Source: Prevotella sp. (GTDB taxonomy: Bacteria; Bacteroidota; Bacteroidia; Bacteroidales; Bacteroidaceae). Taken from it: DNA of 47,974 nucleotides. Position 1 is the first letter of the stretch, and every line of letters begins with the position of its first letter. Made by a program: the position numbers and the translations under genes. A model generated the notes under the pieces. It was given only the letters and a program-made list of their open reading frames with translations. It searched no databases and had not been told where the DNA came from. Shown here piece after piece: positions 19,259 through 33,667 of the stretch. The stretch covers positions 1-47,974 of the forward strand of contig JAFUFD010000061.1 in NCBI GenBank assembly GCA_017470055.1, in the 5' to 3' direction.

Positions 19259-19302
19259 CTCTTTTCGCTTTTAATGGTTAATACATTTTATTGTAAGTCT
19301 TA

Positions 19303-19473
19303 TTATAAGTTTTCGTCTTGGTCTTTTCTGGTGTATTTCTTGATCTTCTGCTCCACCATCTTGTCGAGTTTCTTCTCCACGTTACGCCCCACCAAGTCTT
19401 CCATCTTGAGTATACGCTCCAGATAGTCCTCGGCATATCTCATTGCCGCCTCTTGGTGTCTCGTTTTTGCCAT
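19303..19473 (-). CDS. small charged coiled-coil protein (56 aa)
   Basis: The ATG at 19473 opens MAKTRHQEAAMRYAEDYLER, followed by heptad-like KMEDLVGRNVEKKLDKMVEQ and a basic tail ending DENL. It is a single amphipathic helix by appearance, without a signal peptide, so it is cytoplasmic. It is the first gene after the promoter/operator at 19501-19563, with a leader of about 20 bases. This supports a real gene despite its size. I do not recognise it. Confidence 0.68.
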   Translation of the reverse strand: MAKTRHQEAAMRYAEDYLERILKMEDLVGRNVEKKLDKMVEQKIKKYTRKDQDENL

Positions 19474-19500
19474 GACTGATTACATTTACAAACTCGGTTG

Positions 19501-19563
19501 CAAATGTACGATGAAATAGACGAAACGTTGTTATCATTTCGTCAAGTAATCTTATCATTTCGT
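19501..19563 (-). promoter_or_regulatory. promoter of the TMEM43 operon with overlapping operator
   Basis: TACATTTG on the minus strand (19501-19508) matches TAnnTTTG, 28 bases before the ATG of the small protein. Just upstream, GACGAAA (19519-19525) and TTTCGTC (19537-19543) form an inverted repeat with an 11-base spacer where a -33 element would lie. The 12-mer TTATCATTTCGT occurs twice (19531-19542 and 19552-19563), with starts exactly 21 bases, two helical turns, apart. This layout suggests binding of a dimeric or tandem regulator. The AraC-type regulator gene ends only six bases away. Confidence 0.6.
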
Positions 19564-19568
19564 TTAAT

Positions 19569-21089
19569 TTACGCCTTTCGCTCTAAGTATTGTGTAGGTG
19601 TAAGCCCGAAAGTCTTCTTGAAAGCACGGGTGAAATTGGGTGTGTCGTTATAGGCGCAAAGCGTGGCTATTTCGCTGACATTCATTTCTGGGTGGTTGTC
19701 AAGCAAATGGCGAGCCCTGCGCATGCGGACGGTCTGGATGAACGACTGCGGTGTCTCGTCCGTCAGTGCCGTCAGCCGTTGGCGGAACTGGAAGAGGCTC
19801 ATACCCAGTTGCTCTGCGACATGACTGGCGTCAATCTGCCCCGTGAGGATTAACTCGTTGATGGTGTTGATGGTCCTCTCCAGGAAATCACGGTCAGCGG
19901 CATTAAGTTCGTCAGTGCCCTCCTTGGTATTAGTGGAGATAGCGTTGTCGTAATGCTCGTTGAGCACGTTGTATTTCTCACGCAGTTCCTTGATATGCTC
20001 ACTGAGTTGGTTGTTGATGTGTGCCTGCTGTTGCTGTCTCCTGCGCATCAGCCACCAGACGGCGACAGCGAAGACGGCGATGGCAAGGGCGGTGGCAATA
20101 GCCCATAGTTTGGCACGTCGCTGCTCATGGTTCTCGATCTGCAACCAGTCGTTGCCGAACTCGGCGTTATAGCGTGCCAGTGTCTCTGCCGATGTCTTGC
20201 TGTAGATGGAGTCCTTCAGGTCGTTGAAGCGGTCGAGTTGGTGTTTCGCCTCGTCAGGATTGCTTTTCCAGAGTGCCTCATAGAGTCCCCTGCGTGCGTG
20301 TACCTCATTATAAGGGTCGCCCAGTTGCATGAAGATATCGGCCGCCTCCTGGTAGTAAGGCAAAGCATCCTCCTCACGCTTTTGGGAGGTCAGTGCCATG
20401 CCCATCTTGTTGCAGGCAATACCTAACGAATGGCGGTCCTCTGTCTTGCGGAGGAAGGGGATGACCTCCCGCAGTATCTTCTCCGCCTCCTGGTACTGGT
20501 GCAGACCGATGAGGATGGACGCCTTCTGGGCCAAGCGTACCATGACACGTGGTTCGTTGCCTGTCGATTTGTCAATCTCGTAGGCTTTTTCGATATATGG
20601 TAGCGCTTTCTGGTCGTTGCCTTGGGCGTGGTACACCTCCGATGCCATTGCCTGCAGGACGGCCATACGCCCGGGGTTGTTCACTTTAGAGGCTTGCTCG
20701 ATGCCTTTCAGTATGTATTTCTCCGCCTCATAGGGCTGATTGGCTCCCATGTAGATACCGGCAAGGGTGTTGAGGCTTGACGACATCACGTCCGGGTCAC
20801 CCGTCTTCTCGTCGAGCGCATAGCACTCCTTAGCGTATCTTGCCGCCTCGTCATAGTTAGACAGGCGGACATGGATGATGGCAAGAAGGCTCAGGCAGTC
20901 TGCCTCCAGTTCCGTCCCCTTGCTCAGAGACAGTGCCTCTTTGGCAATGATGGCAGCCTGTTTGTAGTCTTGCTGGGCATACGCCTCATCGGCTGCCTCA
21001 TAGAGTTGTGTCGCCTTGTTGTTGTCGGCAAAAGCCGTCAACATCATCAGCAGGCATCCTGTCAGTAGTATGAGTCTTTTTCGCATCAT
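19569..21089 (-). CDS. membrane-bound TPR-AraC family transcriptional regulator
   Basis: The 506-residue protein (from ATG 21089) has a signal-like N-terminus and a series of TPR helices (about 25-300: ATQLYEAADEAYAQQDYKQA and several similar units). One membrane segment (AIATALAIAVFAVAVWWLM) and a short coiled coil follow, and the protein ends in an AraC-type double helix-turn-helix (LGMSLFQFRQRLTALTDETP ... YNDTPNFTRAFKKTFGLTP). Such proteins are thought to sense an envelope signal by the periplasmic TPR part and bind DNA from the membrane. The start at 21089 (or 21086) is chosen because a -7 element at 21106-21113 lies inside the longer possible frame. Its likely target is the promoter at 19501-19563. 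Confidence 0.88.
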   Translation of the reverse strand: MMRKRLILLTGCLLMMLTAFADNNKATQLYEAADEAYAQQDYKQAAIIAKEALSLSKGTELEADCLSLLAIIHVRLSNYDEAARYAKECYALDEKTGDPDVMSSSLNTLAGIYMGANQPYEAEKYILKGIEQASKVNNPGRMAVLQAMASEVYHAQGNDQKALPYIEKAYEIDKSTGNEPRVMVRLAQKASILIGLHQYQEAEKILREVIPFLRKTEDRHSLGIACNKMGMALTSQKREEDALPYYQEAADIFMQLGDPYNEVHARRGLYEALWKSNPDEAKHQLDRFNDLKDSIYSKTSAETLARYNAEFGNDWLQIENHEQRRAKLWAIATALAIAVFAVAVWWLMRRRQQQQAHINNQLSEHIKELREKYNVLNEHYDNAISTNTKEGTDELNAADRDFLERTINTINELILTGQIDASHVAEQLGMSLFQFRQRLTALTDETPQSFIQTVRMRRARHLLDNHPEMNVSEIATLCAYNDTPNFTRAFKKTFGLTPTQYLERKA

Positions 21090-21105
21090 TATAGGAATTT
21101 TGGTA

Positions 21106-21113
21106 CAAAAATA
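21106..21113 (-). promoter_or_regulatory. -7 element for the AraC-type regulator (TATTTTTG)
   Basis: TATTTTTG on the minus strand matches TAnnTTTG, 17 bases before ATG 21089. It rules out the upstream in-frame ATG at 21155 as the main start. Confidence 0.5.
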
Positions 21114-21141
21114 CGAAAAATCCGAAATTCTGCAAAAGATA

Positions 21142-21173
21142 TTTGGCGGAATCATAAAAAAGAAGTATTTTTG
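21142..21173 (+). promoter_or_regulatory. promoter TTTG-N20-TATTTTTG
   Basis: TTTG at 21142-21145 and TATTTTTG at 21166-21173 have the standard 20-base spacing and precede the ATG at 21201 by 27 bases. The promoter is back to back with that of the AraC-type regulator. Confidence 0.65.
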
Positions 21174-21200
21174 TTCCCCAAGAATACTAACCTAACATAT

Positions 21201-22166
21201 ATGGAACAACTGTTTTTCGAACTGATACGGGTTTCCATCGGACAGTTAGACTGTCTGAGTCGTGGTCCAGAACCAGAGGAGTGGCAAGAGTTGAGCGAGA
21301 TGGCCCATGAGCAGCAGATGGTGGGTGTCTGCTATCGTGGTGTGCAGGCTTTGTTTGAGTACGGACTCAGGGTGCCGCAGGACTTGGTGATTGACTGGAT
21401 GTCAGAGGCAGAGCAGATAGAGGAGCGTAACGACCTCATGAACCAACGCTGTGCCAAGGTACAGGAGATGCTGGGGGACAGGGCGCTCCTGTCGAGTGTG
21501 CTGGCAGGACAGGGGGCGGCGCATGACTATGCCGAGACGTTGCGGACGCTCCGCCAGCCTGATGGCCTCGACTTCTATACCAACGGCTCGCAGGAGGAGT
21601 TGATAGCCTTTGTGAAGCGTAGCGGTCAGCAAGAGGTAAGGAAAGACAGCCAGCAGGTGTTCCTTGCGATGTGGGACGATACGGAGGTGCGCCTGCACTA
21701 TCGTATCGGTATGGGAAAGAATCCTTTGAGAAACAGGAAGATACGCCAATGGTTTGCGAAGAACCGCAAGGCATTGTTCGTGAGGGATGGTGAGATGACA
21801 CGTCCGTCAGCGACGATGAATGTGGTGTATATGCTGGTGCGCCTCTATTGGCAGTTCCTCTATAAAGGTATCACTTTGCGTGAGTTGTCCGACTGTTTCT
21901 TCGCCCTGAAGCGGTTGGCAGAAAAAGGCGGCGTGTCGACCATCAATTACAAGAAGGTGTTAGGCGGTTTTGGTATCCTCGGCTTTGCCAGAGGCATCAT
22001 CTGGGTACTTCAGGAGGTTTTCGGACTGGAGGAGGGGATGCAAATCCTGGAGCCCTCGGAGTCGCAAGGCTCCTTCATCCTTCGTGAGGTGATGGCTGGC
22101 AAGCGGAACGTCTTGCGCCTCCTCTTGAGATATCCAGTAGACTTGCTGTTTTCTTTTATTCCTTGA
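21201..22166 (+). CDS. nucleotidyltransferase-like protein (NTP_transf_5 type), active-site motif degenerate
   Basis: The 321-residue protein resembles the uncharacterised nucleotidyltransferase family (NTP_transf_5). It has a helical N-terminus (LFFELIRVSIGQLDCL), a central LRQPDGLDFYTNGSQEEL where the family normally has G-D-I-D-L, and a helical end. Here only one Asp of the usual DxD pair is retained (GLDFY), so it may not transfer nucleotides. The start ATG 21201 is used because it follows the promoter at 21142-21173. Family members are often near capsule or surface genes; none of its immediate neighbours explains its role. It converges with and overlaps the phosphatase gene by 11 bases. 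Confidence 0.7.
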   Translation: MEQLFFELIRVSIGQLDCLSRGPEPEEWQELSEMAHEQQMVGVCYRGVQALFEYGLRVPQDLVIDWMSEAEQIEERNDLMNQRCAKVQEMLGDRALLSSVLAGQGAAHDYAETLRTLRQPDGLDFYTNGSQEELIAFVKRSGQQEVRKDSQQVFLAMWDDTEVRLHYRIGMGKNPLRNRKIRQWFAKNRKALFVRDGEMTRPSATMNVVYMLVRLYWQFLYKGITLRELSDCFFALKRLAEKGGVSTINYKKVLGGFGILGFARGIIWVLQEVFGLEEGMQILEPSESQGSFILREVMAGKRNVLRLLLRYPVDLLFSFIP

Positions 22167-23421
22167 TGTCCTGGCAGCGCCTCAGATAGAAGTCACGGAA
22201 GTCGCTCCATTTATAATAAGGTGCCTGTGTGGTGGGGACGGGTAGTGTTGCCTCCAAGCCGTTCAACAGGCATTTCACAAGGATGTCGTTGCGTCCTTGC
22301 TTGCCACGATAGAACACCAGTTGGATGTTGCAAGCCTTGCACGTCTCCCAGTTCTGATAGCAGTTCTTCACCTCGTAGGGATCCTCAGGGTCGAGGTCTG
22401 CGCCATTGATACCCATCAGCACGGTCAGCGGTCCGATGAAGGAGTCGTGCCCAAAGCGCAGGTCGGCGATATGGTCGCTGGTACCAGCCAATACCGCATC
22501 GGCTTTCTGGATGAAATCCTGCAGGATGGGGATGACCACATACTTGTCGGTGAACACCCAAGTGTAGGATCCTAAGTTGGAACTCTCCCATAGGGTTACG
22601 ATGTCCTCATCTGTTATCAGGTTGCCCATCATCCCCTCATAGTTGATGCTGGGCAATGTCTTGTAGAAGTCGATGAGAAGATAGGCGTCCTTATTCGTGT
22701 CCCAAGGCAGTCCCTCCGTTGTGGTGAAAGTCCTTGCCATCACCTTGTCGACAATGGTGTTGTCGCTCTTGAATTGGCTTCTGTTCTCCTCATAGCGGGG
22801 CTTTGCCTTCGGGAAGTGGTACTTGTGGGGATTCTGACGGTCATTAGGGACGACGGCATCGAGGGTGAAGCGGGATGACTGCTCACGAATCTCTATCTTC
22901 GGATTACACTGCACCAGTTCCTGGCAGAATGCCGACATGCTGAGGACGCAGCGTCCTGAGAGGGAGGAGACAGCAAGGACGTTGCCGCCTTTCCTAAATA
23001 CCTCAGGAAACTGGTTGTACATCCTGCGGGCAATGCCCTGGTGTTGCTCCCATCCCAACTGGGTCAGTTCGCCCACTCCTGTCATCAACTCCTCCTTGAC
23101 GGCGATAAACTTCTGGTAGAAGGTCTCGCCCTCAGGAGTGAGCAACTGTTTCTCGTGGGCAGTGGTCAACAGGGTGTCTAAGTCCAGATAGAGCCTGTCT
23201 GTCCAGTTGTAGCGTGACCCATGGCGGGCATAGTGGCTGATATAGAAAGGCTTGTATCCTTTGGGTGCTTTGGTTTGCTGCCCTGTCTCAAACAGATAGG
23301 GGCAGTCGTTGCCATACGCTTTTCGAGGGTTCTCCCTGAGTTGGTCCAGTACTTTGTTGTTTTGGGCTCCACTCGCCATCGCGAGGAGCACCATCAGTAG
23401 AATAGGTAATAGTCTTTTCAT
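22156..23421 (-). CDS. secreted histidine-acid phosphatase, MINPP/phytase-like
   Basis: The 421-residue protein (from ATG 23421) has a signal peptide ending near ASGAQ. It has the histidine-phosphatase motif RHGSRYN at residues 66-72, preceded by FYISHYA. Further on, FGHDSFIGPLTVLMG supplies the HD proton-donor pair typical of the two-domain acid phosphatases. Bacteroides homologues of this type are multiple inositol polyphosphate phosphatases that strip phosphate from phytate, an abundant plant phosphate store, which fits a plant-fibre degrader. The in-frame ATG at 23448 is rejected because it overlaps the -7 element at 23446-23453. Confidence 0.88.
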   Translation of the reverse strand: MKRLLPILLMVLLAMASGAQNNKVLDQLRENPRKAYGNDCPYLFETGQQTKAPKGYKPFYISHYARHGSRYNWTDRLYLDLDTLLTTAHEKQLLTPEGETFYQKFIAVKEELMTGVGELTQLGWEQHQGIARRMYNQFPEVFRKGGNVLAVSSLSGRCVLSMSAFCQELVQCNPKIEIREQSSRFTLDAVVPNDRQNPHKYHFPKAKPRYEENRSQFKSDNTIVDKVMARTFTTTEGLPWDTNKDAYLLIDFYKTLPSINYEGMMGNLITDEDIVTLWESSNLGSYTWVFTDKYVVIPILQDFIQKADAVLAGTSDHIADLRFGHDSFIGPLTVLMGINGADLDPEDPYEVKNCYQNWETCKACNIQLVFYRGKQGRNDILVKCLLNGLEATLPVPTTQAPYYKWSDFRDFYLRRCQDIKE

Positions 23422-23445
23422 CGCCAGTTGAGTATTGAATCTTTG

Positions 23446-23534: not shown

Positions 23535-23644
23535 GTGTATTACTTATTCACGAACTTTTTACCGTTCTGAATCAAGATACCCTTCTGGCTCTTGTCAACC
23601 TTCTGACCTGCGAGGTTGTAGATAGGAGCGTTAGCGTTATCTGC
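23535..23644 (-). repeat. outer inverted repeat, left arm (C-terminal tail)
   Basis: These 110 bases match 27439-27548 in opposite orientation with two mismatches. They cover the codons for the last ~34 residues, the stop and five bases beyond. Such identity next to diverged middles points to recent duplication or gene conversion. Confidence 0.9.
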
Positions 23645-24622
23645 AACCTTAGCCTTTGGAGTGTCAATTCCTGAAGGAGTATAATCCTTAATAGTCTTAC
23701 CCTTATAGAACTTCACACCTTGGAAGCCAATCTGCCAGTTATTTCCAAAAATATAATAGGTCTCACCAGGTTCTGCGTCAAATACAAACCAGATAAATTT
23801 TCTTGAACTTAATACATTGGCAGTTTTGGACTCATTTGTACCTGCATCAACATATTCATATGCTGTCTCAGTACCTATGATATAGTTTTCAACTGTGAAC
23901 GATGGGATAAATACCCAGGTGTTATCTGCGTTCTTTACATTCTGTGAATATCCCTCAACTTTATATTCAGTAGTATTCACATCAGCATTCCAAGTAAGTG
24001 CTTTTTGGGTGCTTCCTTTGACAATATAGAGCAGACGTGTGTCACCAGACTGTACAAAGGTTCCGATTTTCATTACACCAGCCTCAGTGGCTGTGGCTTT
24101 AACATAGTTACCACTATTAGGCAAGCCAACAGAACCATCAGGATTATAATATGTCCATCCGTCGGTATCTCCATCGGCTTTAAAACCAGGATAATATCTG
24201 TCTGCAAACCCATCTTCATTCCAAAATTGTTTCGAGACAAATGAAACATAAGGAACCCCCGAACCAATTACAGAGTAGAACTCGCCTGGAATTGTTGGCT
24301 GAGATTCTTTGTTGTTGCCACCTATCTTAAACTCTGCTGCATTCCAACCTGCTTCAGGCCAGTTTGCTTCAGTTAACCCAGAAGCACCACCTTGTGCGCT
24401 GGGAATTTCTATTGGAGTCTTACTGGAAACAACCTGTAAGTTGATAGGAGAGAGGTCGATAGTAGCGATCTTATCATTTCCACTCTCGGTAGGGTTAGCG
24501 AATTCTGTAGCCATCGTGCCACCAGGAGCAGCAACATAATTAACATCAGGTGTCCAATCGTCCTGCGCATTCACACTCATGGCAACAAGAGCCATGCTAA
24601 TGAGGGTAAAAATCTTTTTCAT
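23540..24622 (-). CDS. secreted protein with Prevotella-type C-terminal sorting tail (left paralogue)
   Basis: The 360-residue protein (ATG 24622) has signal peptide MKKIFTLISMALVAMSVNAQ and a beta-rich body (including WFVFDAEPGETYYIFGNNWQ then IGFQGVKFYKG). It ends with NAPIYNLAGQKVDKSQKGIL and a Lys-rich finish, typical of the C-terminal sorting tails of Prevotella secreted proteins. The gene at 26539 encodes a paralogue: the leader and signal peptide are nearly identical in DNA, as is the tail, but the middle differs strongly while keeping the GESYIV..QLGFGGFEF-type core. The 28 codons upstream of the chosen ATG belong to the duplicated leader, not the protein. Unlike its paralogue, it has no TAnnTTTG element upstream in the present orientation. 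Role unknown; probably surface-exposed or carbohydrate-binding. Confidence 0.82.
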   Translation of the reverse strand: MKKIFTLISMALVAMSVNAQDDWTPDVNYVAAPGGTMATEFANPTESGNDKIATIDLSPINLQVVSSKTPIEIPSAQGGASGLTEANWPEAGWNAAEFKIGGNNKESQPTIPGEFYSVIGSGVPYVSFVSKQFWNEDGFADRYYPGFKADGDTDGWTYYNPDGSVGLPNSGNYVKATATEAGVMKIGTFVQSGDTRLLYIVKGSTQKALTWNADVNTTEYKVEGYSQNVKNADNTWVFIPSFTVENYIIGTETAYEYVDAGTNESKTANVLSSRKFIWFVFDAEPGETYYIFGNNWQIGFQGVKFYKGKTIKDYTPSGIDTPKAKVADNANAPIYNLAGQKVDKSQKGILIQNGKKFVNK

Positions 24623-24700
24623 AAGCGTTTTAGTTTTGTTTGTTAATATTTGAGTTAATTGTAGTTCGTTGCTTTCGCCATCCACCTCTTGCGCAGAGGT
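24563..24700 (-). repeat. inner inverted repeat, left arm (leader plus signal peptide)
   Basis: These 138 bases match 26461-26598 in opposite orientation with three mismatches; the first 110 bases are identical. The repeat covers the 5' leader, a small CCTCT-GCGCA-AGAGG hairpin at its outer edge, and the signal-peptide codons. Similarity stops sharply at the hairpin on the promoter side and at the signal cleavage site on the gene side. Confidence 0.93.
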
Positions 24701-24706
24701 AGACAC

Positions 24707-24790
24707 TTTTGCCTATATTTTAGGGAGATTATGCCCTGTTTTTGCCTATATTTTAGGAAATTTTTCGCTTGTTTTTGCCTATATTTTAGG
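24707..24790 (+). repeat. three 18-base direct repeats at exact 33-base spacing
   Basis: TTTTGCCTATATTTTAGG occurs at 24707-24724, 24740-24757 and 24773-24790. Copies are identical and the 15-base spacers differ. A 33-base period is about three helical turns, so all copies face the same side of the DNA, as in operator or iteron arrays. The array fills the space between the left leader and the ATPase promoter. Confidence 0.92.
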
Positions 24791-24807
24791 AAAAAACCGT
24801 ATCTTTG
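24774..24807 (+). promoter_or_regulatory. candidate promoter of the ATPase gene (TTTG-N22-TATCTTTG)
   Basis: TATCTTTG (24800-24807) matches the -7 consensus, 25 bases before ATG 24833. The best TTTG lies inside the third 18-base repeat (24774-24777) with a slightly long 22-base spacer. A protein bound to the repeats would overlap the -33 region, suggesting repression or autoregulation. Confidence 0.5.
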
Positions 24808-24832
24808 CCACTGAATTAGAGGATATTATAAT

Positions 24833-26173
24833 ATGATACAACGTCAAATGCTACAGCAACTCCATGAATGGAGCAAGAGAGAGAACCGCAAGCCACTGGT
24901 ATTAAGAGGTGCCAGACAAGTGGGAAAGACTACATTGGTTGATGAGTTCAGCAAAGAGTTTGACCACTATATTAAACTGAATTTGGAGCAAAGTGCCGAT
25001 GCTCGTGTGTTCTCTTTGACCGATAATGTTCATGAAGCATTTCAGTATATCTGTGTCCAAAAGCGTATTTCCATTAACAAAAATGGTCGGACACTCCTCT
25101 TTATTGATGAAATCCAAGAAGAGCCGAGAGCAGTGGCAATGCTTCGCTATTTTAAGGAGCAATTACCAGAGTTGTTTGTTATTACCGCAGGCTCAAGATT
25201 ACAAAGTTTACTGAATCAACACATCTCTTTTCCTGTTGGTAGGGTAGAGTACATGTCTTTGCGCCCTTGTTCCTTTTTGGAGTATCTACAGGCAATGGGT
25301 GACGAGGAACTAGTCAATATGATTCACCATCATGAGGTGCCTTCATTGTTGCATGATCAATTAATCCAACGTTTCAGTAACTATGCGCTTATTGGTGGGA
25401 TGCCTGAAGTAGTAGCAGACTATGCCCGCCATCAAGATATCATGAAACTATCGCCAATATACAAATCATTACTTGACGGATATGATGAGGATGTAGAGAA
25501 ATATGCTAAGAACACATCCCAAGTAGCAATCATTCGCCATATATTGCGTCATGGTTGGACAGAAGCAGGTCAGACTATCACTTATCGTGGCTTTGGAGGA
25601 AGTGCATATAGCAGCAAGGAAATTCATGAGGCGTTTGACGTGCTGCAAAAAGCGTTTCTATTACATCTTGACTATCCTGTAACTTCTGTGCAGGCACCAC
25701 CCCAACCCGCTTTGACACGTTCACCCAAATTAGTCTGGGTGGATTCTGGTATTGTCAATTTTTCTGCAAACATCCAGTTAGAGTACTTGCAAAACAAAAG
25801 TCTGCTTGACATCTGGCGTGGTCATGCGGCAGAGCAAATTGTAGCACAGGAATTACGCATACTATTAGACCGAAATTACAAAGATGAGCAATATTTCTGG
25901 GTTAGAGGGAAAACGGGTTCCACTGCAGAGGTCGATTTTGTATGGCATAATGGTGTGAGACTAGTTCCTATAGAGGTGAAGGCAGGAACAAACTCACACC
26001 TCCGCTCTTTGCATTCTTTCATGTCTACCCCTCAGGCAAGTGATGTCGCTGTTAGGATATGGAGTGGTCCATATTCTGAAGATGAACTGACTACAGCCAA
26101 TGGGCATAAGTTCAGATTATTGAATATCCCCTTTTATTATGTGAGTATATTGGATGAGTTGATTAAGGAATAG
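24833..26173 (+). CDS. AAA ATPase with DUF4143 C-terminal domain
   Basis: The 446-residue protein has Walker A GARQVGKTT (26-34) and Walker B LLFIDE (88-93), followed by the sensor-like FVITAGSRLQSLL. That is the AAA_14 pattern. The C-terminal half is DUF4143, ending with AEVDFVWHNGVRLVPIEVKAG-type residues (D...E-x-K), which resembles a PD-(D/E)XK nuclease core. These proteins are abundant in Bacteroidetes and are considered accessory, mobile or defence-linked genes, but their function is not established. This copy is enclosed by a 138-base inverted repeat and by arrays of direct repeats, a setting that suggests DNA-directed activity or at least regulation by these sites. Confidence 0.9.
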   Translation: MIQRQMLQQLHEWSKRENRKPLVLRGARQVGKTTLVDEFSKEFDHYIKLNLEQSADARVFSLTDNVHEAFQYICVQKRISINKNGRTLLFIDEIQEEPRAVAMLRYFKEQLPELFVITAGSRLQSLLNQHISFPVGRVEYMSLRPCSFLEYLQAMGDEELVNMIHHHEVPSLLHDQLIQRFSNYALIGGMPEVVADYARHQDIMKLSPIYKSLLDGYDEDVEKYAKNTSQVAIIRHILRHGWTEAGQTITYRGFGGSAYSSKEIHEAFDVLQKAFLLHLDYPVTSVQAPPQPALTRSPKLVWVDSGIVNFSANIQLEYLQNKSLLDIWRGHAAEQIVAQELRILLDRNYKDEQYFWVRGKTGSTAEVDFVWHNGVRLVPIEVKAGTNSHLRSLHSFMSTPQASDVAVRIWSGPYSEDELTTANGHKFRLLNIPFYYVSILDELIKE

Positions 26174-26191
26174 AATGTATTGCTACCTGCC

Positions 26192-26276
26192 GACTTAGAG
26201 TCAAACGGTCGGTTGACATGGAGTCAACCAATCGGTTGACTGGAGTCGGCAGATCGGTTGACTGGAGTCAACCGAT
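26192..26276. repeat. 22-base-period array of GGTTGAC/GAGTCAA hairpin units
   Basis: GAGTCAA-like cores start at 26198, 26221, 26243 and 26265, and CGGTTGAC at 26210, 26233 and 26255, so the period is 22-23 bases. The last unit is a perfect palindrome: ATCGGTTGACT (26253-26263), GG, AGTCAACCGAT (26266-26276). The array starts 19 bases after the ATPase stop. It may be an operator array or may act as a terminator-like hairpin, but no T-run follows. Confidence 0.88.
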
Positions 26277-26296
26277 AAAGGGGATGCTTCCAACGA

Positions 26297-26358
26297 TTGA
26301 TTACAACGGCATTTTACATCGAATACAATGGCACTTATATTCGATTAGAATGGCACTT
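26297..26358. repeat. second array: three 18-base near-repeats at exact 22-base spacing
   Basis: Copies lie at 26297-26314, 26319-26336 and 26341-26358, with consensus TCGATTACAATGGCACTT and a few differences. Starts are exactly 22 bases apart, about two helical turns. The array ends 57 bases before the -33 element of the right-hand gene, an upstream-activator position. Confidence 0.85.
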
Positions 26359-26415
26359 TACACACAGATGTTTCACCTTATTTATATATATGTACGTATA
26401 TTTTACACCAAAAAG

Positions 26416-26447
26416 TTTGGAGGTTTCAAAAAAATGCCTTATATTTG
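26416..26447 (+). promoter_or_regulatory. promoter TTTG-N20-TATATTTG of the right-hand secreted-protein gene
   Basis: TTTG at 26416-26419 and TATATTTG at 26440-26447 have standard spacing. The -7 element ends 13 bases before the inner inverted repeat begins, so the promoter is inside the segment bounded by the repeats. The left paralogue has no such element at the equivalent place. Confidence 0.75.
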
Positions 26448-26460
26448 CACCGAAATATAC

Positions 26461-26598
26461 ACCTCTGCGCAAGAGGTGGATGGCGAAAGCAACGAACTAC
26501 AATTAACTCAAATATTAACAAACAAAACTAAAACGCTTATGAAAAAGATTTTTACCCTCATTAGCATGGCTCTCGTTGCCATGAGTGTAAATGCACAG
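26461..26598 (+). repeat. inner inverted repeat, right arm (leader plus signal peptide)
   Basis: This is the partner of 24563-24700: identical over 26461-26570, then mismatches at 26574, 26589 and 26595. The outer edge carries the CCTCT/AGAGG hairpin. Confidence 0.93.
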
Positions 26599-27543
26599 AA
26601 CATCAAGGATACCGATCCTTCGCATCTCTATCCTATCAAGAGTATTACTTGGGGAGACATCACTTGGAAGAATGGTAACAACAAGAAGGATAAGGACAAT
26701 GCAGACATGTTCTTCTTGATGGGTACAGGCAATGGCTACTCTGAGATTATGGCAGAGGAGATTTATACAGATGATGAGCCTACAGGAAACTATCGCGCAT
26801 GCTATGGTTACATTGAGTATGAGAATGGCGAAACTGGAGCACCTGCTTATGGTCTGTATTATAAGTTCACTCCTTCTACTGCTGGTACATTGAAGGTAAA
26901 TGTATGGGTTAACAAGGGTAACCGTAAGACTTTCGTTATCAAGGCATCTGATGGTAAGCCTCTGACTCCCTATGTCGACTATACTTTCGACGGCTATGTA
27001 AATGGTCAGAACACAACAGAGGCTGATGAAACTCAGCATCCTACTTATTTTACTGCTGAAGAAATCAAGGATCGTCACGACGCATCTGCAAATGCCGAAC
27101 AACCTTATGTAATTGACGCAGGTAATCAGGCAGTTTGGGGCTGGATAACCTTTAATGTAGAAGCAGGTGAGAGTTATATTGTTTATCAGCAGAGTTCACA
27201 ACTTGGCTTTGGTGGCTTTGAGTTTGGTGGCGAGAAATATGTCGCTTCTCCAGAAGAAGGTGTTGTAGCCGCTGAGTTTGCCGCTGTTATTGATGCAGAC
27301 GGTAAGGCTACTAATGTTAACGAGAGAGGTTCTGTTGTTGCCTTCACCGCCGCTGGTGTGGCTGTTGAGGCTGTTGGTGGCGCTGTACCTACAGAGGTTG
27401 TTCCTGACCTTAGTGGCTCTGGTATCTCTAACGTAAAGGCAGATAACGCTAACGCTCCTATCTACAACCTCGCAGGTCAGAAGGCTGACAAGAGCCAGAA
27501 GGGTATCTTGATTCAGAACGGTAAGAAGTTCGTGAATAAGTAA
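26539..27543 (+). CDS. secreted protein with Prevotella-type C-terminal sorting tail (right paralogue)
   Basis: The 334-residue protein starts at ATG 26539 with the same signal peptide as its left paralogue (MKKIFTLISMALVAMSVNAQ). The body is beta-rich, with YYKFTPSTAGTLKVNVWVNK and WGWITFNVEAGESYIVYQQS followed by QLGFGGFEFGG. An Ala/Val-rich linker (about 275-295) leads to the tail NAPIYNLAGQKADKSQKGIL. A long frame upstream of this ATG runs through the promoter and repeats and is rejected. A strong promoter lies upstream and a terminator follows. Likely secreted to the surface; substrate or partner unknown. Confidence 0.83.
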   Translation: MKKIFTLISMALVAMSVNAQNIKDTDPSHLYPIKSITWGDITWKNGNNKKDKDNADMFFLMGTGNGYSEIMAEEIYTDDEPTGNYRACYGYIEYENGETGAPAYGLYYKFTPSTAGTLKVNVWVNKGNRKTFVIKASDGKPLTPYVDYTFDGYVNGQNTTEADETQHPTYFTAEEIKDRHDASANAEQPYVIDAGNQAVWGWITFNVEAGESYIVYQQSSQLGFGGFEFGGEKYVASPEEGVVAAEFAAVIDADGKATNVNERGSVVAFTAAGVAVEAVGGAVPTEVVPDLSGSGISNVKADNANAPIYNLAGQKADKSQKGILIQNGKKFVNK

Positions 27544-27548
27544 TACAC
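27439..27548 (+). repeat. outer inverted repeat, right arm (C-terminal tail)
   Basis: This is the partner of 23535-23644, with two mismatches in 110 bases. It covers the tail codons, the stop and five bases past the stop. Confidence 0.9.
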
Positions 27549-27640: not shown

Positions 27641-27668
27641 CGCCCAATACTACGAACTACTAAAACAA

Positions 27669-30359
27669 ATGGATATGAAGAGAAGAATGATGATGCTGGT
27701 GCTGATGAGTGCTTTTGCCTTAGGCACTTTCGCACAAAGAACTATTACTGTCGCCAAGGATGGTACGGGCGACTATGCTACCGTACAGGCTGCTGTGGAC
27801 GCAGTGGCGGAAGGCGAGGAGGCTACTATTGAGGTCAAAGCGGGCACCTATGAGGAGATGGTGAAGATCGGAACCCGTCAGAATGCCTCCACCAAGAAGA
27901 TATCCCTGATTGGTGAGGGGGCGGATAAGACCATTATCACTGCCGCCAATGGTAAGAACACCATCGGCAGTGGAAAGGATTTGCGCGACTATGCCACGGT
28001 AGGTATCTTCGCTCCAGACTTCTATGCGCAGGATATCTGTCTCCAGAACACGGGAGGCAGTGCGGCAGGTCAGGCACTTGCCTTGCATGTGGATGGCGAC
28101 CGTGCCACCTTCTACCACTGTAAGATAGCAGGCTACCAGGACACCCACCGTACCAAGAAGACCACCCGCAGTTATTATAAGGAGTGCGTCATCAAGGGTG
28201 CCACCGACTACATCTATGCTGGTGGTACTTGCTGGTTTGAGAGATGTACGCTGAACTGTGTCGCTGGCGGCTATATCACTGCCCCAGAGGACATCACCGT
28301 CTATACGACGGCAGAGGATGGCACGAAGATATGGCTGGGCTTTATCTTCAACAACTGTGAGGTGACGAAGGGGCAGGGTGTCGCTGACAAGAGTGTCGCT
28401 TTAGGTCGTTGCTGGGGTGCCGAGAAATGTGGCAGTATGTTCCTGAACTGTCAGTTGAATAATATCATCAAGGCTGCAGGATGGGACACCATGGGAGGCA
28501 ATGATGGCACGAAGTCGTATTTTGCGGAGTATAAGAGCAAGAACGGCACAGACCTTGCCGACGTGTCGGGTCGTATCAGTTGGAGTCACCAGTTGACGGA
28601 TGCGGACTATGCGAAAGTGAGCACGTGGGCGAAGGTGGACGAGATATATCGCAGTATCAACTCCAAAGCGGTAGCCTTTGACCCCGAGGCAGTTATTGCC
28701 GCCCATCTCAAGGCATCAGCCGATGACTATACGGAATTAGAGAACAAACTGCTTGCCTTCCCAACGGCACGTGGCTTTGGGAAATTCGTCTCAGGCGGTC
28801 GTGGCGGTAAGGTGGTAGAGGTCACCAATCTGGAGGATGACCCTGCGAATCCCTCTGAGGGCTCTTTGCGCTGGGCATTGACCGTGGCAGGCAAGGAGAA
28901 TGCCACCATCGTGTTCCGTGTCAGTGGTGTTATCAAGATAGGTGTCAATGCGCAGAAGAAACGTGAACTGCGTGCTGGTCTGAAGAACGTGACGATTGCG
29001 GGTCAGACGGCACCTGGCGATGGTATTCTGATTCGAGGCGGCAAGGTGAACTTAGGTGGCTCGGATAATGTCATCATCCGCAACCTGCGTTTCCGTGTCG
29101 GTGAGATTGACGAGGAAGACCTTGCGAAGGCTACCGATAGCCGCTTTATAGCAGGGGCAGGACTGGGTATCGAGAATGCCAAGAATATCATCATCGACCA
29201 CTGCTGCTTCGGATGGAGCGGTGAGGAGAATATGACGGTATACGACGACCATTTTATGACGGTGCAGTGGTGTATCATCCATGAGGGACTTTACGACGCA
29301 GGACACCAGAAAGGTAATCGCAGTTATGGCAATCAGTGGGGTGGCTCACCAGCGACCTATCACCATAACCTGTTGGCGCATAACTATAACCGCAGTTCAC
29401 GCCTGAATGGCGCCAGTAGTACAACGGAGGACCGTAACGTCTTCATGGAGTATTTCAACAACGTGAACTATAACTGGGGTAAGAAGAACTCCTGTTATGG
29501 TGGTGAGAATGAGGCAGGCACCTATAGTTCCCATGAATGTAACTTCGTGGGCAATTACTATAAGCCGGGTCCCTCGACACCAAGCAACAGTTACTTCATG
29601 GAGTTGTCGGGAGCACGTAGTGGTAAGACACTCAATCCCAATCCTTCCCGTTGGTATTTCGCTGATAATGTGATGGAAGGCAATGCCGCAGCCACCGCAG
29701 ACAACTGGTCGGCAATCCATAACAATACGATCTATACTATCGAGGGAATGAAGTCGGAGTCTCTTGTCTATCCCTCTTCGGAGTATACACGTCTTGCCAA
29801 ATGCCAGTTTGATGACTACGACAAATATCGTACACCTACTGAGTCGGCAGAGGAGGCATACGAGCATGTGCTTGCCAAGGCTGGAACGCTTAACCGTGAT
29901 ATCATTGAACAGCGACTGGTGAATGAGGTACGGAATAAACTCGCCCAGTACAAGGGCACGACACTGAACAAAGCAGGTATCATTGACTCACCAGAGGACG
30001 CAGAGGGATGGCCTACTTATGCGGCAGGAACTCCTGTGGTGGATGAGGACCATGACGGAATGGCTGATGACTGGGAACTTGCCAACGGCTTTGACCCGAC
30101 GAATCCCGACGATCGTAATGTGATTGCCTCGCCAGAGGGATATACCGCTTTGGAGATCTACCTAAATAGTCTGATGGGTGAGACCATTGCTGTTGTCGCA
30201 ACCGCTATCGCTCCCGTCCAAAAAGGGGCTTCTCTGGTCAACCGCCAGTATTTTGCGCTGAACGGTCGTCAGTCGTCAAACTTACAGCGTGGTATGAACA
30301 TCATCCGTGAGACTTACTCTGACGGAACGACACGTACCATGAAGGTGATGGCGAAATAG
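27669..30359 (+). CDS. secreted pectinesterase (CE8) - pectate lyase (PL1) fusion
   Basis: The 896-residue protein has a signal peptide (ending GTFAQ, about 23). A CE8 pectin methylesterase domain spans about 25-340: GTYEEMVKI, QDTHRTKKT, GATDYIYAG (two catalytic Asp) and LGRCWG, where the usual LGRPW has Cys for Pro. A PL1-type right-handed beta-helix spans about 370-720: RGFGKFVSGGRGGKVVEVTN, DHCCFGWSGEENMTVYDDH, NYNRSSRLNG. A calcium-loop/thrombospondin-3-like segment (DEDHDGMADDWELANGFDP) and a sorting-tail-like end (QRGMNIIRETYSDGTTRTMK) follow. Demethylation by the first domain makes the substrate of the second, so the fusion couples both steps on homogalacturonan. ATG 27675 is an alternative start. 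It heads the pectin locus. Confidence 0.92.
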   Translation: MDMKRRMMMLVLMSAFALGTFAQRTITVAKDGTGDYATVQAAVDAVAEGEEATIEVKAGTYEEMVKIGTRQNASTKKISLIGEGADKTIITAANGKNTIGSGKDLRDYATVGIFAPDFYAQDICLQNTGGSAAGQALALHVDGDRATFYHCKIAGYQDTHRTKKTTRSYYKECVIKGATDYIYAGGTCWFERCTLNCVAGGYITAPEDITVYTTAEDGTKIWLGFIFNNCEVTKGQGVADKSVALGRCWGAEKCGSMFLNCQLNNIIKAAGWDTMGGNDGTKSYFAEYKSKNGTDLADVSGRISWSHQLTDADYAKVSTWAKVDEIYRSINSKAVAFDPEAVIAAHLKASADDYTELENKLLAFPTARGFGKFVSGGRGGKVVEVTNLEDDPANPSEGSLRWALTVAGKENATIVFRVSGVIKIGVNAQKKRELRAGLKNVTIAGQTAPGDGILIRGGKVNLGGSDNVIIRNLRFRVGEIDEEDLAKATDSRFIAGAGLGIENAKNIIIDHCCFGWSGEENMTVYDDHFMTVQWCIIHEGLYDAGHQKGNRSYGNQWGGSPATYHHNLLAHNYNRSSRLNGASSTTEDRNVFMEYFNNVNYNWGKKNSCYGGENEAGTYSSHECNFVGNYYKPGPSTPSNSYFMELSGARSGKTLNPNPSRWYFADNVMEGNAAATADNWSAIHNNTIYTIEGMKSESLVYPSSEYTRLAKCQFDDYDKYRTPTESAEEAYEHVLAKAGTLNRDIIEQRLVNEVRNKLAQYKGTTLNKAGIIDSPEDAEGWPTYAAGTPVVDEDHDGMADDWELANGFDPTNPDDRNVIASPEGYTALEIYLNSLMGETIAVVATAIAPVQKGASLVNRQYFALNGRQSSNLQRGMNIIRETYSDGTTRTMKVMAK

Positions 30360-30372
30360 TAACGGTTAGCGG

Positions 30373-31467
30373 TTAGAAGAGTGAACCCCAGGGATAACTT
30401 CCTGGTTTCATGATAACGAAAGTCCCATTCGGGGCTTTCGTTTTGATTACCCCTGGTGCTATCTGGCATACCATCTCTAACTCGTTCCATCCCAGGTGTC
30501 GCAGGGTGGCAAAGGCACTGGCACCGCCTTCGATGATGAGTTGCTGAGGTAGTCGCAAGGCGACGAGTTGTTGTATCAGTGTCGCTGTCATCTCACGTAA
30601 GTGGACGGCAACCTCCTTTCCTGTACGATGGTGGAAGGGAATGGTAATCATCAGCGATGTTGCTTGCTCATAGCGTGCACGTGCCTCCTCCAGCCAAGAT
30701 GTGATGTCCTTGCTGCCGTCATAGATGGCACGAGGCATCTCCGTAACAGGAATGCCGAGGTCTAAGGGCTTGCTCTGCGTGCTGCCACAGAGTAGGAGGG
30801 TGGAGGGAAAGTTCTGAGTTAAGAGTTCAGTGTTCAGAGTTGCAGCGTTCAGAGTTGCAGAACTGTCCCCAGTGAGCCAAGCCTCAAAGAGGTCGGCGGC
30901 TCCTGCGAAGAGGGTATGTCCGTCGTCATAGTCGGCTATCACCTTCCTGATGTCCTCTGTCGTCTCAGCGTCAGGCATCAGGATACCCTTCTGTGCGGCA
31001 TCAGGGAAACGCTCCTGCAGAACGGAGGTCGTGGCAGGGAACTCCGGGTCGTAACTGAAGGCGGTCTCGTGGATGGGGGTATTATTAATATAATAGGTAC
31101 CCGCGCGTATGATTCTTCCTTTCGAGGGATTAGCAGGCAGATAGACGGCACGCTGGTAACCTGTCGCCTCCATCAGTGTCGACAACTCCGCTACCACATG
31201 TCCTCGTAATGCGGAGTCGGTCTTCTTGAAGAGCGACCGCCTCCCGTCCCCTCCCTGATGTGGGAGGGAGGAGAGGATGCGCCGAGTCTCCGCTACCGCC
31301 TCTTCCTCTGTCATCGAGCGGGTATCAGTGGCGATGACGGTTGTTCCGCTTGTGGCTGTGACCCAGCCACAAACTAAACGGACAGGCAGCCCATGGTGAT
31401 GGGCAATGCCCGCCATCTCGGCAGCCCCAGTGATATCATCGGCAATGACAAACATGGCTTTTAGCAA
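30373..31467 (-). CDS. four-carbon-acid-sugar kinase family protein (DUF1537), copy 1
   Basis: The 364-residue protein has the DUF1537 N-terminal motif ADDITGAAEMAG (about 8-19) and the C-terminal nucleotide-binding part (LIIEGGASAFATLRHLGW ... APGVIKTKAPNGTFVIMKPG). Family members such as OtnK and DtnK phosphorylate tetronates or related sugar acids at the terminal hydroxyl. It overlaps the PdxA-type gene by seven bases. The known pairing of a DUF1537 kinase with PdxA2 converts D-threonate (or a related acid) to dihydroxyacetone phosphate plus CO2. A 15-base in-frame repeat (30811-30860) encodes an ATLNA-ATLNT insertion. Confidence 0.88.
   Translation of the reverse strand: MLKAMFVIADDITGAAEMAGIAHHHGLPVRLVCGWVTATSGTTVIATDTRSMTEEEAVAETRRILSSLPHQGGDGRRSLFKKTDSALRGHVVAELSTLMEATGYQRAVYLPANPSKGRIIRAGTYYINNTPIHETAFSYDPEFPATTSVLQERFPDAAQKGILMPDAETTEDIRKVIADYDDGHTLFAGAADLFEAWLTGDSSATLNAATLNTELLTQNFPSTLLLCGSTQSKPLDLGIPVTEMPRAIYDGSKDITSWLEEARARYEQATSLMITIPFHHRTGKEVAVHLREMTATLIQQLVALRLPQQLIIEGGASAFATLRHLGWNELEMVCQIAPGVIKTKAPNGTFVIMKPGSYPWGSLF
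30811..30860. repeat. 15-base tandem repeat inside the DUF1537 gene
   Basis: GTTCAGAGTTGCAG occurs at 30832-30845 and 30847-30860, with a decayed unit (GTTCTGAGTTAAGA) just before. Period is 15 bases (five residues), so the frame is kept. Confidence 0.75.
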
Positions 31468-32507
31468 TTCGCCGTTAACTTATTTCTTCTATAGATCGCC
31501 ATGCGGGTAGCGTAGTCAATGCTAAGTGTCATGGCACTGTCGTTGGCAATACCTTTTCCTGCTACGTCAAAGGCGGTACCATGGTCTACGCTGACACGGA
31601 TGATAGGCAGTCCCAAGGTGATGTTCACACCACTGGCACTCTCCATCTTTCCTGTCTCCTTGTTCCAGTTAAAGGCGCAAACCTTCAAGGGAATATGTCC
31701 TTGGTCGTGATACATGGCGACGCAGCCGTCGTACTGACCGCACTTCGCCTTGGCGAAGATAGAGTCGGGAGGTACGGGACCGTCGACATCAAAGCCACGG
31801 GCTTTCAGTTCCTCGATGGCAGGGATGATCTCCTGCGCCTCCTCATAGCCGAACATACCATTCTCGCTGCTATGGGGGTTGAGACCAGCCACCCCGATAT
31901 GCGGCTTCTCGATACCGAACTGGCGACAGGCATCGTCAATCAGTTCCACACACTCGATGACACGAGCCTTCTTCACCAGGTCGCAAGCCTTCCGCAGAGG
32001 GACATGGGTGGAGACATGGATGACACGGATGTTCTCGTCGGCAAGCATCATGGCATACTTCTTCGTGTTCGTGAAGGTGGCGTAGATCTCCGTATGTCCG
32101 TCGTAGTGGTGTCCCGCAAGGTTCAGCGCCTCCTTGTTCAAGGGTGCCGTCACCGTACCGTCCACCTCATCCGCCATGGCGAGTTCTATCGCTTTCTTGA
32201 TATACTGGAAGGCGGCATTACCACATTGTGGCTGTACCTTGCCGAACTCAAAGGTGGAGAGGTCGACGCACTGCAGGTCGTAGACATCAATGGTGCCATA
32301 CTCAAACTTAGCGTCCTTCACGCTCTGTACGGCATTCACCTTCAAGTCGAAACCTAACAGTTGGACAGCCTGCTTCATGATGGCAGCATCACCCGTGACG
32401 ATGGGGTTACATTTCTCGTAAGTCTCTTTTCTATTCAGGGCACGTACCGTGATCTCAGGACCGATGCCTGCGGGGTCGCCCATGGTAATTGCTAATATTG
32501 GGGTCAT
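31461..32507 (-). CDS. PdxA-family 4-phospho-sugar-acid dehydrogenase (PdxA2-like)
   Basis: The 348-residue protein starts MTPILAITMGDPAGIGPEIT, the PdxA opening. It carries the metal-binding His residues in HHYDGHTE, YHDQGHIPLK and SVDHGTAFDVAGKG. PdxA proper oxidises 4-phosphohydroxythreonine in vitamin B6 synthesis; PdxA2 members oxidise and decarboxylate D-threonate or D-erythronate 4-phosphate. The adjacent DUF1537 kinase, and the lack of other pyridoxal genes, favour the catabolic PdxA2 role. It lies six bases after the alcohol dehydrogenase gene. Confidence 0.9.
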   Translation of the reverse strand: MTPILAITMGDPAGIGPEITVRALNRKETYEKCNPIVTGDAAIMKQAVQLLGFDLKVNAVQSVKDAKFEYGTIDVYDLQCVDLSTFEFGKVQPQCGNAAFQYIKKAIELAMADEVDGTVTAPLNKEALNLAGHHYDGHTEIYATFTNTKKYAMMLADENIRVIHVSTHVPLRKACDLVKKARVIECVELIDDACRQFGIEKPHIGVAGLNPHSSENGMFGYEEAQEIIPAIEELKARGFDVDGPVPPDSIFAKAKCGQYDGCVAMYHDQGHIPLKVCAFNWNKETGKMESASGVNITLGLPIIRVSVDHGTAFDVAGKGIANDSAMTLSIDYATRMAIYRRNKLTANC

Positions 32508-32513
32508 AGTCAG

Positions 32514-33659
32514 TTAATAAAGTGAATTATAGATATCGCGAGCATCCTGCTCAGTGACTTCTCTCGGATTGTTCTTCAACAGGCGCTGCACCTCCATGGC
32601 GGCTTTCGCCATGCCGTCAACGGCACTCTGGGGAATACCTAAGTCCGTCAGTTTCTTGGGAATACCGACGGCATCGGCAAGTTCATAGATGAAGTCGACA
32701 CCACGCTGGGCAGTCTCATTGTCGTCCTTGCCAGGCTCACAGCCAAGGGCAATAGCGACTTCCGCATAGCGACGAAGGTTAGCAGGGCGGTTGAACTTCA
32801 TCACAGAGGGCAACAGGATAGCGTTCGACAGTCCATGAGGGATATGGAACTCACCACCGAGCGGGTAAGACAGGGCATGTACGGCAGCCGTATTGACAGG
32901 ACCTAAACATAATCCGCCATAGAGGGAGCCGAGGGCAAGTGCCTCACGAGCCTCTTGGTCCTTGCCGTCCTTGACAGCACGTAACAGGTTGGCGGCTATC
33001 AGGCGAATACCTTGCAGGGCATAGATGTCGACTGCGGGATGGGCAAACTTATTGGTGTATGCCTCGATACAGTGTGTCAGCGCATCCATTCCCGTATCGG
33101 CAGTGACCTTTGCCGGTACCGTCCACGTCAGTTTGGGGTCCACATAGGCGGCATCCGCAATGAGGTAAGGCGATACGATACCTTTCTTCAGGTGGTCACG
33201 CTCATCCAATAGGATGGCATTGGGCGATACCTCAGAGCCTGTCCCCGCAGTAGTCGGCAGACAGGCGAACCAGAGACCTTTCGCCTTGATGAAGCCAGTG
33301 CCGAAGCAGTCCTCAACCTGCTGGTCACTGTTGATGAACGCCGCCACCAGTTTCGTCACGTCGAGGACAGAGCCGCCACCGATACCGATGACACTGTCGG
33401 CTTGGAAGGCACGTGCCTTCTCAAGGATTGCCTTGAAGTCGTTGACGGTAGGCTCGGCAAGGATGTTCTGGAAGATCTCGATTTGGATACCACCATTACG
33501 CAGTTCCTCCAGTGGTGCCTCGATGAGTGGCAGGATAGGGGGAGCCGTCAGCACAAACAGTCGCTGGTACCCCAGTGCTTTATAATCGCTTACTAATGTC
33601 TCAATGCAGCCCGTGCCGAACACGATCTTCTGTGGCTGCAAAAGGGTGATTGCTTTCAT
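32514..33659 (-). CDS. iron-containing alcohol dehydrogenase
   Basis: The 381-residue protein has the group III ADH motifs: GIGGGSVLDVTKL (NAD binding), ADTGMDALTHCIEAY (Asp and His metal ligands) and HALSYPLGGEFHIPHG (two further His ligands). The start ATG 33659 is chosen because it gives the family N-terminus MKAITLLQPQKIVFG; sequence upstream in frame belongs to the symporter gene in another frame. It would reduce or oxidise a small aldehyde or hydroxy compound made by the aldolase or kinase steps nearby. Its relatives include lactaldehyde and butanol dehydrogenases. Confidence 0.92.
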   Translation of the reverse strand: MKAITLLQPQKIVFGTGCIETLVSDYKALGYQRLFVLTAPPILPLIEAPLEELRNGGIQIEIFQNILAEPTVNDFKAILEKARAFQADSVIGIGGGSVLDVTKLVAAFINSDQQVEDCFGTGFIKAKGLWFACLPTTAGTGSEVSPNAILLDERDHLKKGIVSPYLIADAAYVDPKLTWTVPAKVTADTGMDALTHCIEAYTNKFAHPAVDIYALQGIRLIAANLLRAVKDGKDQEAREALALGSLYGGLCLGPVNTAAVHALSYPLGGEFHIPHGLSNAILLPSVMKFNRPANLRRYAEVAIALGCEPGKDDNETAQRGVDFIYELADAVGIPKKLTDLGIPQSAVDGMAKAAMEVQRLLKNNPREVTEQDARDIYNSLY

Positions 33660-33667
33660 ATTCTTTT

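Follow-up and report, generated by a model that had tools for sequence, protein, structure and literature searches.

We propose that a locus of a gut Prevotella sp. is probably a switch, based on an invertible promoter, that selects one of two secreted proteins. The window, meaning the whole stretch of DNA analyzed, is a complete contig (JAFUFD010000061.1, here C72; 47,974 nucleotides [nt]) of a draft metagenome assembly (GCA_017470055.1) with 125 contigs, a completeness of 95.25, and a contamination of 6.84. In it, two divergent secreted-protein genes, P1 on the left and P2 on the right, flank a segment at 24701-26460. In favor of a switch, P1 is an intact 360-codon gene that lacks a promoter here and has a promoter-bearing relative elsewhere. 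We envisage that the single promoter at the right edge of the segment would serve whichever gene it faces. Recombination between the two inner arms, in all likelihood at the palindrome that opens each of them, would flip the segment and hand the promoter from P2 over to P1 with its spacing preserved. The flip would presumably be reversible within a population. A SusC-type tyrosine recombinase acting in trans may perform it, one such enzyme being encoded on contig C84; alternatively, the long arms could serve as a substrate for RecA. The outer arms would allow a second, larger inversion. A trans-acting recombinase appears somewhat more likely than RecA alone.

Inverted arms and a single promoter

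A repeat search placed the inner inverted arms at 24560-24700 and 26461-26601 (141 nt, 97% identity, spaced by 1760 nt), bearing out a first-pass annotation of the same DNA that had described 98% identical 138-nt arms at 24563-24700 and 26461-26598 spanning the leaders and signal-peptide codons. The arms cover the 78-nt leader and codons 1 to 20 of both genes. Three differences separate the 138-nt arms, at positions 114, 129, and 135 counted from the promoter side and all within the last 25 nt; the first 113 nt are identical. A second, outer inverted pair, absent from that annotation, lies at 23535-23644 and 27439-27548 (110 nt, 98%) and covers the last 34 codons, the stop codon, and a further 5 nt of P1 and P2.

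A full promoter, defined as TTTG plus TAnnTTTG at constant spacing no more than 250 nt upstream, was found for 17 of 20 extracted family genes, a pattern that arose by chance in 19 of 10,000 base-shuffled upstream regions. The genes without a promoter within 250 nt were P1 and both genes of another genome, G173. In the window, the promoter previously read as firing into the right gene is present, with TTTG at 26416 and TAnnTTTG ending at 26447. The companion statement that no TAnnTTTG promoter fires into the left gene also held, as a scan for the TTTG/TAnnTTTG consensus found no full promoter toward P1 in 24623-26540; the sole TAnnTTTG on the P1-facing strand is about 1.9 kilobases off, within the P2 leader. 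When 24701-26460 was inverted by script, the -7 element landed 99 nt from the P1 start codon (ATG), exactly as it now stands to P2, which upholds the geometry of the suggested transfer of the promoter to the other gene. The locus thereby shows the arrangement that marks invertible promoters of Bacteroidales, a promoter between inverted repeats facing one flanking gene.

Shared ends and divergent bodies

The bodies of P1 and P2 are 29% identical in amino acid sequence, set against 100% identity for the 78-nt leader, 95% for the signal-peptide DNA, and 98% for the 3' end. Corresponding values for the G173 pair are 36% for the body, 96% for the leader, and 97% for the signal-peptide DNA. Matrices and trees were built from 18 genes of 15 genomes, namely G033 and 14 of the 24 genomes in which the leader pattern occurs; two of the 20 extracted genes, encoding 665 and 230 amino acids, were left out. 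In the body tree, which carries a long-branch warning with P1 and G035 among the long branches, P2 grouped with G191, G007, G239, and G186, and P1 with G381. Trees forcing the bodies together were rejected both for P1 and P2 (p = 7e-11) and for the two G173 genes (p = 7e-42). In the leader tree the two G173 leaders grouped (94/88, below the starred level), and the window leaders were mutually nearest rows at a fork without resolution; the 3'-end tree likewise lacked resolution.

A closer relative of the P1 body, in G229, is 71% identical over 359 residues and has its own full promoter. Matches to P1 at an E value of 1e-30 occurred in 14 of 398 genus genomes, including G000, besides which only G229 exceeded 51%. 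The G229 leader and 3' end are 75% and 83% identical in DNA to those of P2. By these measures the ends of P1 follow its neighbor P2, and its body does not. Because the bodies differ and their joint tree is rejected, yet the leader and 3' end are 98 to 100% identical, we conclude from sequence comparison that the ends have recombined and that the bodies are old and different. Purifying selection alone is an unlikely cause of the alike ends; body relatives elsewhere have less similar ends (G173_L and G356, body 76% and leader 78%; P1 and G229, body 71%).

Between the window and G186, synonymous divergence was 0.13 for the ATPase gene inside the segment, 0.23 for a pectinesterase gene, and 0.44 for a phosphatase gene; in the P2 body it reached about 2.0, close to saturation. 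The ends of the G106 gene are 88 to 97% like those of G007 and G239, its body is 25 to 34% identical to theirs, and the G007 and G239 bodies are 96% identical. Judged by such divergences, bodies are replaced or exchanged between species while the ends stay. Neither P1 nor P2 had a Pfam family above cutoff or an NCBIfam match up to an E value of 1. Their predicted structures are mostly beta, with a mean predicted local distance difference test score of 81.5 for P2 and 72.6 for P1; a Foldseek search of these models against the PDB gave no match at an E value of 0.001 or better, and its top rows suggest a weak likeness to carbohydrate-binding modules. The locus adjoins the pectinesterase gene. 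A mobile element was considered and rejected: plasmids gave no match, phages one weak match (191 nt, 67.7%), and viral contigs no exact leader match.

The same layout at other loci

The signal-peptide DNA pattern was found in 24 of the 398 genus genomes. Two copies on one contig occurred only in G000 and G173, in both cases divergent; G119 held two on different contigs. In G173, which is another species, the inner arms measure 137 nt (97%), with 123 nt identical, and the outer arms 92 nt (87%), the right outer arm ending at the contig edge. The middle segment contains a promoter piece pointing right, then two small open reading frames (one DUF6722), and then the right gene, which the promoter piece presumably reaches. 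Next to the left arm lie remains of the region upstream of the ATPase gene (score 53, against a best of 36 in 2,000 shuffles), so the arrangement probably predates the split.

Within the window's own assembly, contig C84 (L084 1-6517; 6,517 nt) carries divergent secreted-protein genes that are 40% identical overall. Their leaders are 97% identical over 115 nt, the first 34 nt without a difference, and of the two genes only the right one is faced by a full promoter. Both contig ends lie inside a 296-nt inverted repeat of 100% identity. Besides a tyrosine recombinase, the segment encodes a helix-turn-helix protein, a DUF6169 protein, and two nucleotidyltransferase/HEPN-type pairs. The C5 locus of G035 is a decayed version of the C84 type: what survives is a 3' stub, the C-terminal 74 residues of the recombinase (76%), a promoter, a leader, and a single gene.

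A candidate crossover site and recombinase

Each inner arm opens with a 17-bp palindrome, ACCTC-N7-GAGGT, that the first-pass annotation did not mention. Its view that long repeats stand here instead of a classical short-repeat invertase site does not seem to hold, since this short palindrome recurs beside tyrosine recombinases between divergent SusC genes. With spacers of 6 to 8 nt, the palindrome had 18 matches in 1,141,039 scanned bases against 2.9 expected from base composition, a count biased in that the pattern was drawn from these loci, many loci were collected for their leaders, and L230 and L232 entered through the recombinase. Ten of the 11 matches with a 7- or 8-nt spacer lie at leaders of the P1/P2 family or of SusC genes, the other being a stray 7-nt match in L125. 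The 6-nt spacer gave 7 scattered matches where about 1 was expected, so the base-composition expectation is too low as a background. At C72, C84, and G186 the palindrome starts 13 to 15 nt downstream of the -7 element; at two further sites the distance is 33 to 38 nt.

Relatives of the C84 recombinase (57.5% and 54.7%) sit between divergent SusC genes in G035 and G119, all four flanking genes being SusC by NCBIfam. At the G119 locus (L232 6515-8845) the palindrome is present in both inverted arms; the G035 locus (L230 4141-8167) has inverted repeats, and one copy was found. Because the palindrome is also present at SusC loci whose leaders otherwise differ, we favor it as a candidate recombination site. 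The window's assembly contains 12 tyrosine-recombinase-family matches, one resolvase match, and recA; a search for tyrosine-recombinase and resolvase families found no recombinase gene on the window contig.

Inversion of the locus in a sister species

A genus search, in which two candidates per genome were scored, returned copies of a dispersed element and a match to locus L119, taken as G186 from identical coordinates. The L119 flanks match the window at 19301-23436 (86%) and 27646-34440 (92%), and the block between them, composed of the ATPase segment (96%), the promoter, and P2, runs opposite to the window. G186 has no P1; in its place beside the ATPase gene is only a 3' stub, which is nearer the P2 3' end than the P1 3' end (scores of 171 and 113). 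Five genomes (G035, G191, G243, G381, and G356) have a single gene by pectin-enzyme-like genes in the direction that P2 has in the window, the enzyme match being weak in G243 and G356, and the G186 arrangement therefore looks derived. In G186, repeats (127 nt, 97%) lie at the 3' ends and just beyond; the breakpoints are inexact, both junctions also holding genes absent from the window. Comparison with related genomes, which had been suggested as a search for the opposite orientation, thus gave an inverted block in a sister species, but with the promoter staying with its gene. The alignment shows that DNA of the locus inverts between repeats of these genes over evolutionary time, an event distinct from the inner flip.

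L119 also has, at 6900-7600, 9526-10170, and 11287-12107, a duplicate of the promoter region, an insert of 450 nt, and additional small genes at either junction of the block. On visual inspection, the insert resembles a DUF4143 C terminus, with no Pfam match, and the small genes resemble toxin-antitoxin modules.

The ATPase gene and other features of the window

The gene within the segment encodes an ATPase with AAA_14 and DUF4143 domains by Pfam. In none of the five other Prevotella loci examined for the ATPase was a P1/P2-type secreted gene found. At least two repeats spaced by 33 nt lie just upstream in 21 of 28 loci with ATPase relatives of at least 55% and in 0 of 4 more distant ones (the scan covered 32 of 42 loci). 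The 33-base repeats noted earlier upstream of the left gene are indeed present at 24707-24805, but as part of the upstream region of the ATPase gene; they look like that gene's own control region, akin to a conserved operator, which would explain what fills the space beside P1. Because its relatives are unlinked to secreted genes, it has its own repeats, and G173 and C84 carry different cargo, the ATPase is probably a passenger and not switch machinery. On the same grounds we rejected it as a recombinase, and the part in the switch that the first-pass annotation had given it is withdrawn.

The features are collected in Table 1. Two further observations concern the window: a dispersed intergenic element with 22-nt repeats at 26192-26337 has copies on contig C15 of the same assembly (90%) and in other Prevotella, and a Schlafen AlbA_2/HATPase_c_4 protein is encoded at 605-2077, near the contig start.

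Table 1. Features of the P1/P2 locus in window coordinates
Feature	Position	Strand	Basis or remark
Inner segment, part expected to flip	24701..26460	.	Between the arms; right edge holds the only full promoter
Left inner arm: P1 leader and signal-peptide codons	24563..24700	-	98% inverted copy of 26461-26598
Right inner arm: P2 leader and signal-peptide codons	26461..26598	+	98% inverted copy of 24563-24700
Palindrome ACCTC-N7-GAGGT, candidate crossover site (putative function)	24684..24700	-	
Palindrome ACCTC-N7-GAGGT, candidate crossover site (putative function)	26461..26477	+	13 nt after the -7 element
Promoter (TTTG, TAnnTTTG) into P2	26416..26447	+	Sequence conserved before G186 and G035 genes
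P1, secreted, 360 amino acids, intact, promoterless in present orientation	23540..24622	-	Body relative with own promoter in G229, 71%
P2, secreted, 334 amino acids	26539..27543	+	Body relatives in G191, G007, G239, G186
AAA_14/DUF4143 ATPase gene, probable passenger	24833..26173	+	Pfam; relatives unlinked to such secreted genes
Three 33-nt repeats, upstream region of ATPase gene	24707..24805	+	Repeat search
Left outer arm: P1 3' end and 5 nt	23535..23644	-	98% inverted copy of 27439-27548
Right outer arm: P2 3' end and 5 nt	27439..27548	+	98% inverted copy of 23535-23644

Alternative explanations

Several observations weigh against a switch of the kind proposed. A site-specific crossover alone leaves the 113 nt of identical leader unexplained. 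The signal-peptide codons of the window pair (95%) are no closer than either is to G186 (95%), their synonymous difference being 0.26 for P1-P2 and P2-G186 alike, and the two 3' ends in G173 (89%) are no more alike than those of G173_L and the window or G191 (88 to 90%). The SusC loci lack a clear promoter asymmetry, as G119 has no strict promoter on either side and G035 a single palindrome, and the palindrome could be a messenger RNA hairpin. C84 may be a contaminant contig, given the contamination of the bin (6.84). Finally, the inner flip was not seen, and the promoter in the sister species still faces P2. The ON/OFF logic first suggested for the locus thus gains from ends that recombined apart from the bodies, from the one-promoter layout at G173 and C84, and from the block inversion, while the inner flip itself is something we infer.

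The inversion may be real and driven by RecA homologous recombination on the long arms, with the palindrome irrelevant, an explanation that we regard as possible but doubtful. It would fit the long identical stretches (113 nt in the window, 123 nt in G173), the presence of recA, and the lack of a recombinase gene on the window contig; it sits poorly with the recurrence of the palindrome at SusC loci that have other leaders and a recombinase, and with the recombinase inside the same layout on C84.

Less probable, in our view unlikely, is a static pair whose ends are kept alike by occasional gene conversion, P1 being a silent store of bodies without functional switching. Bodies exchanged between species under constant ends, the unseen inner flip, and the decay of the G186 and G035 C5 loci to one gene and a stub all agree with such a store. 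Against it, the promoterless P1 still has its reading frame intact, three loci preserve the one-promoter layout, and C84 holds a recombinase and has both contig ends in a 100% inverted repeat.

It is quite improbable that P1 is constitutively expressed from another type of promoter: the scan covered only the TTTG/TAnnTTTG consensus, but that consensus occurs in 17 of 20 family genes at a constant spacing rarely matched by shuffled sequence (19 of 10,000), and P1 and the C84 left gene are without it. A misassembly at the repeats as the source of the divergent pair or its orientation, conceivable in a draft metagenome assembly with repeats of about short-read length, can be largely set aside, as G173, another species, has the same layout and G186 preserves the order in which the ATPase segment and P2 follow each other.

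Relation to known systems and significance

In the surface-layer locus sapA of Campylobacter fetus, a single promoter lies on a RecA-dependent invertible segment that also contains cargo genes; the divergent genes on either side have conserved 5' ends but bodies that differ. The Prevotella locus resembles it in its divergent genes, shared 5' ends, different bodies, and one promoter between them. It differs in that the proteins and phylum are unrelated, and in that the sapA repeats are longer and RecA dependent, whereas here the evidence points to a short palindrome and a family of recombinases. Among the open-license papers that text searches on Prevotella and inversion returned, none described such a locus in title or abstract.

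The Bacteroides fragilis tyrosine recombinase Tsr0667 is reported to perform shufflon-type inversions at SusC/SusD clusters, one enzyme inverting three such clusters and nine other regions (PMC4747536); action at a distance, as proposed here, therefore has a precedent. Both systems belong to Bacteroidales, and the switch proposed here would resemble that of Tsr0667 in using a tyrosine recombinase, in placing an outer-membrane or secreted gene under a promoter by inversion, and in one enzyme serving distant sites. It differs in that neither gene is of the SusC/SusD kind, that an ATPase gene but no recombinase gene lies within the segment, and that two proteins share one promoter; the candidate recombinase lies on C84, with relatives between SusC genes. 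Bacteroidales invertible promoters are also described at capsule and resistance loci, where a TTTG/TAnnTTTG promoter likewise lies between inverted repeats (PMC8748976, PMC12632263). In those accounts, inversion of the promoter segment switches a single operon on or off, and in PMC8748976 the resistance loci adjoin their invertase gene; here, by comparison, a 1.8-kilobase gene-bearing segment would choose between two proteins, and the arms include coding sequence. At the pneumococcal spnIII locus, inversion at long repeats is reported to be independent of RecA and to need the local recombinase only in part (PMC6620402).

More tentatively, and with less confidence than the switch itself, we suggest that a SusC-type recombinase network in gut Prevotella took in a second, unrelated family of secreted proteins beside pectin-degrading genes; its sites would coincide with the transcription start in several gene families, and conserved ends would let bodies swap between species. 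If so, one enzyme could reset several surface programs, and flipping together with between-species swapping of bodies would give two levels of variation in a commensal. The locus offers a testable candidate site and a candidate recombinase, and its position next to a pectinesterase gene suits a joint study of flipping and body exchange. The finding would add to Prevotella a switch between two proteins with exchangeable bodies.

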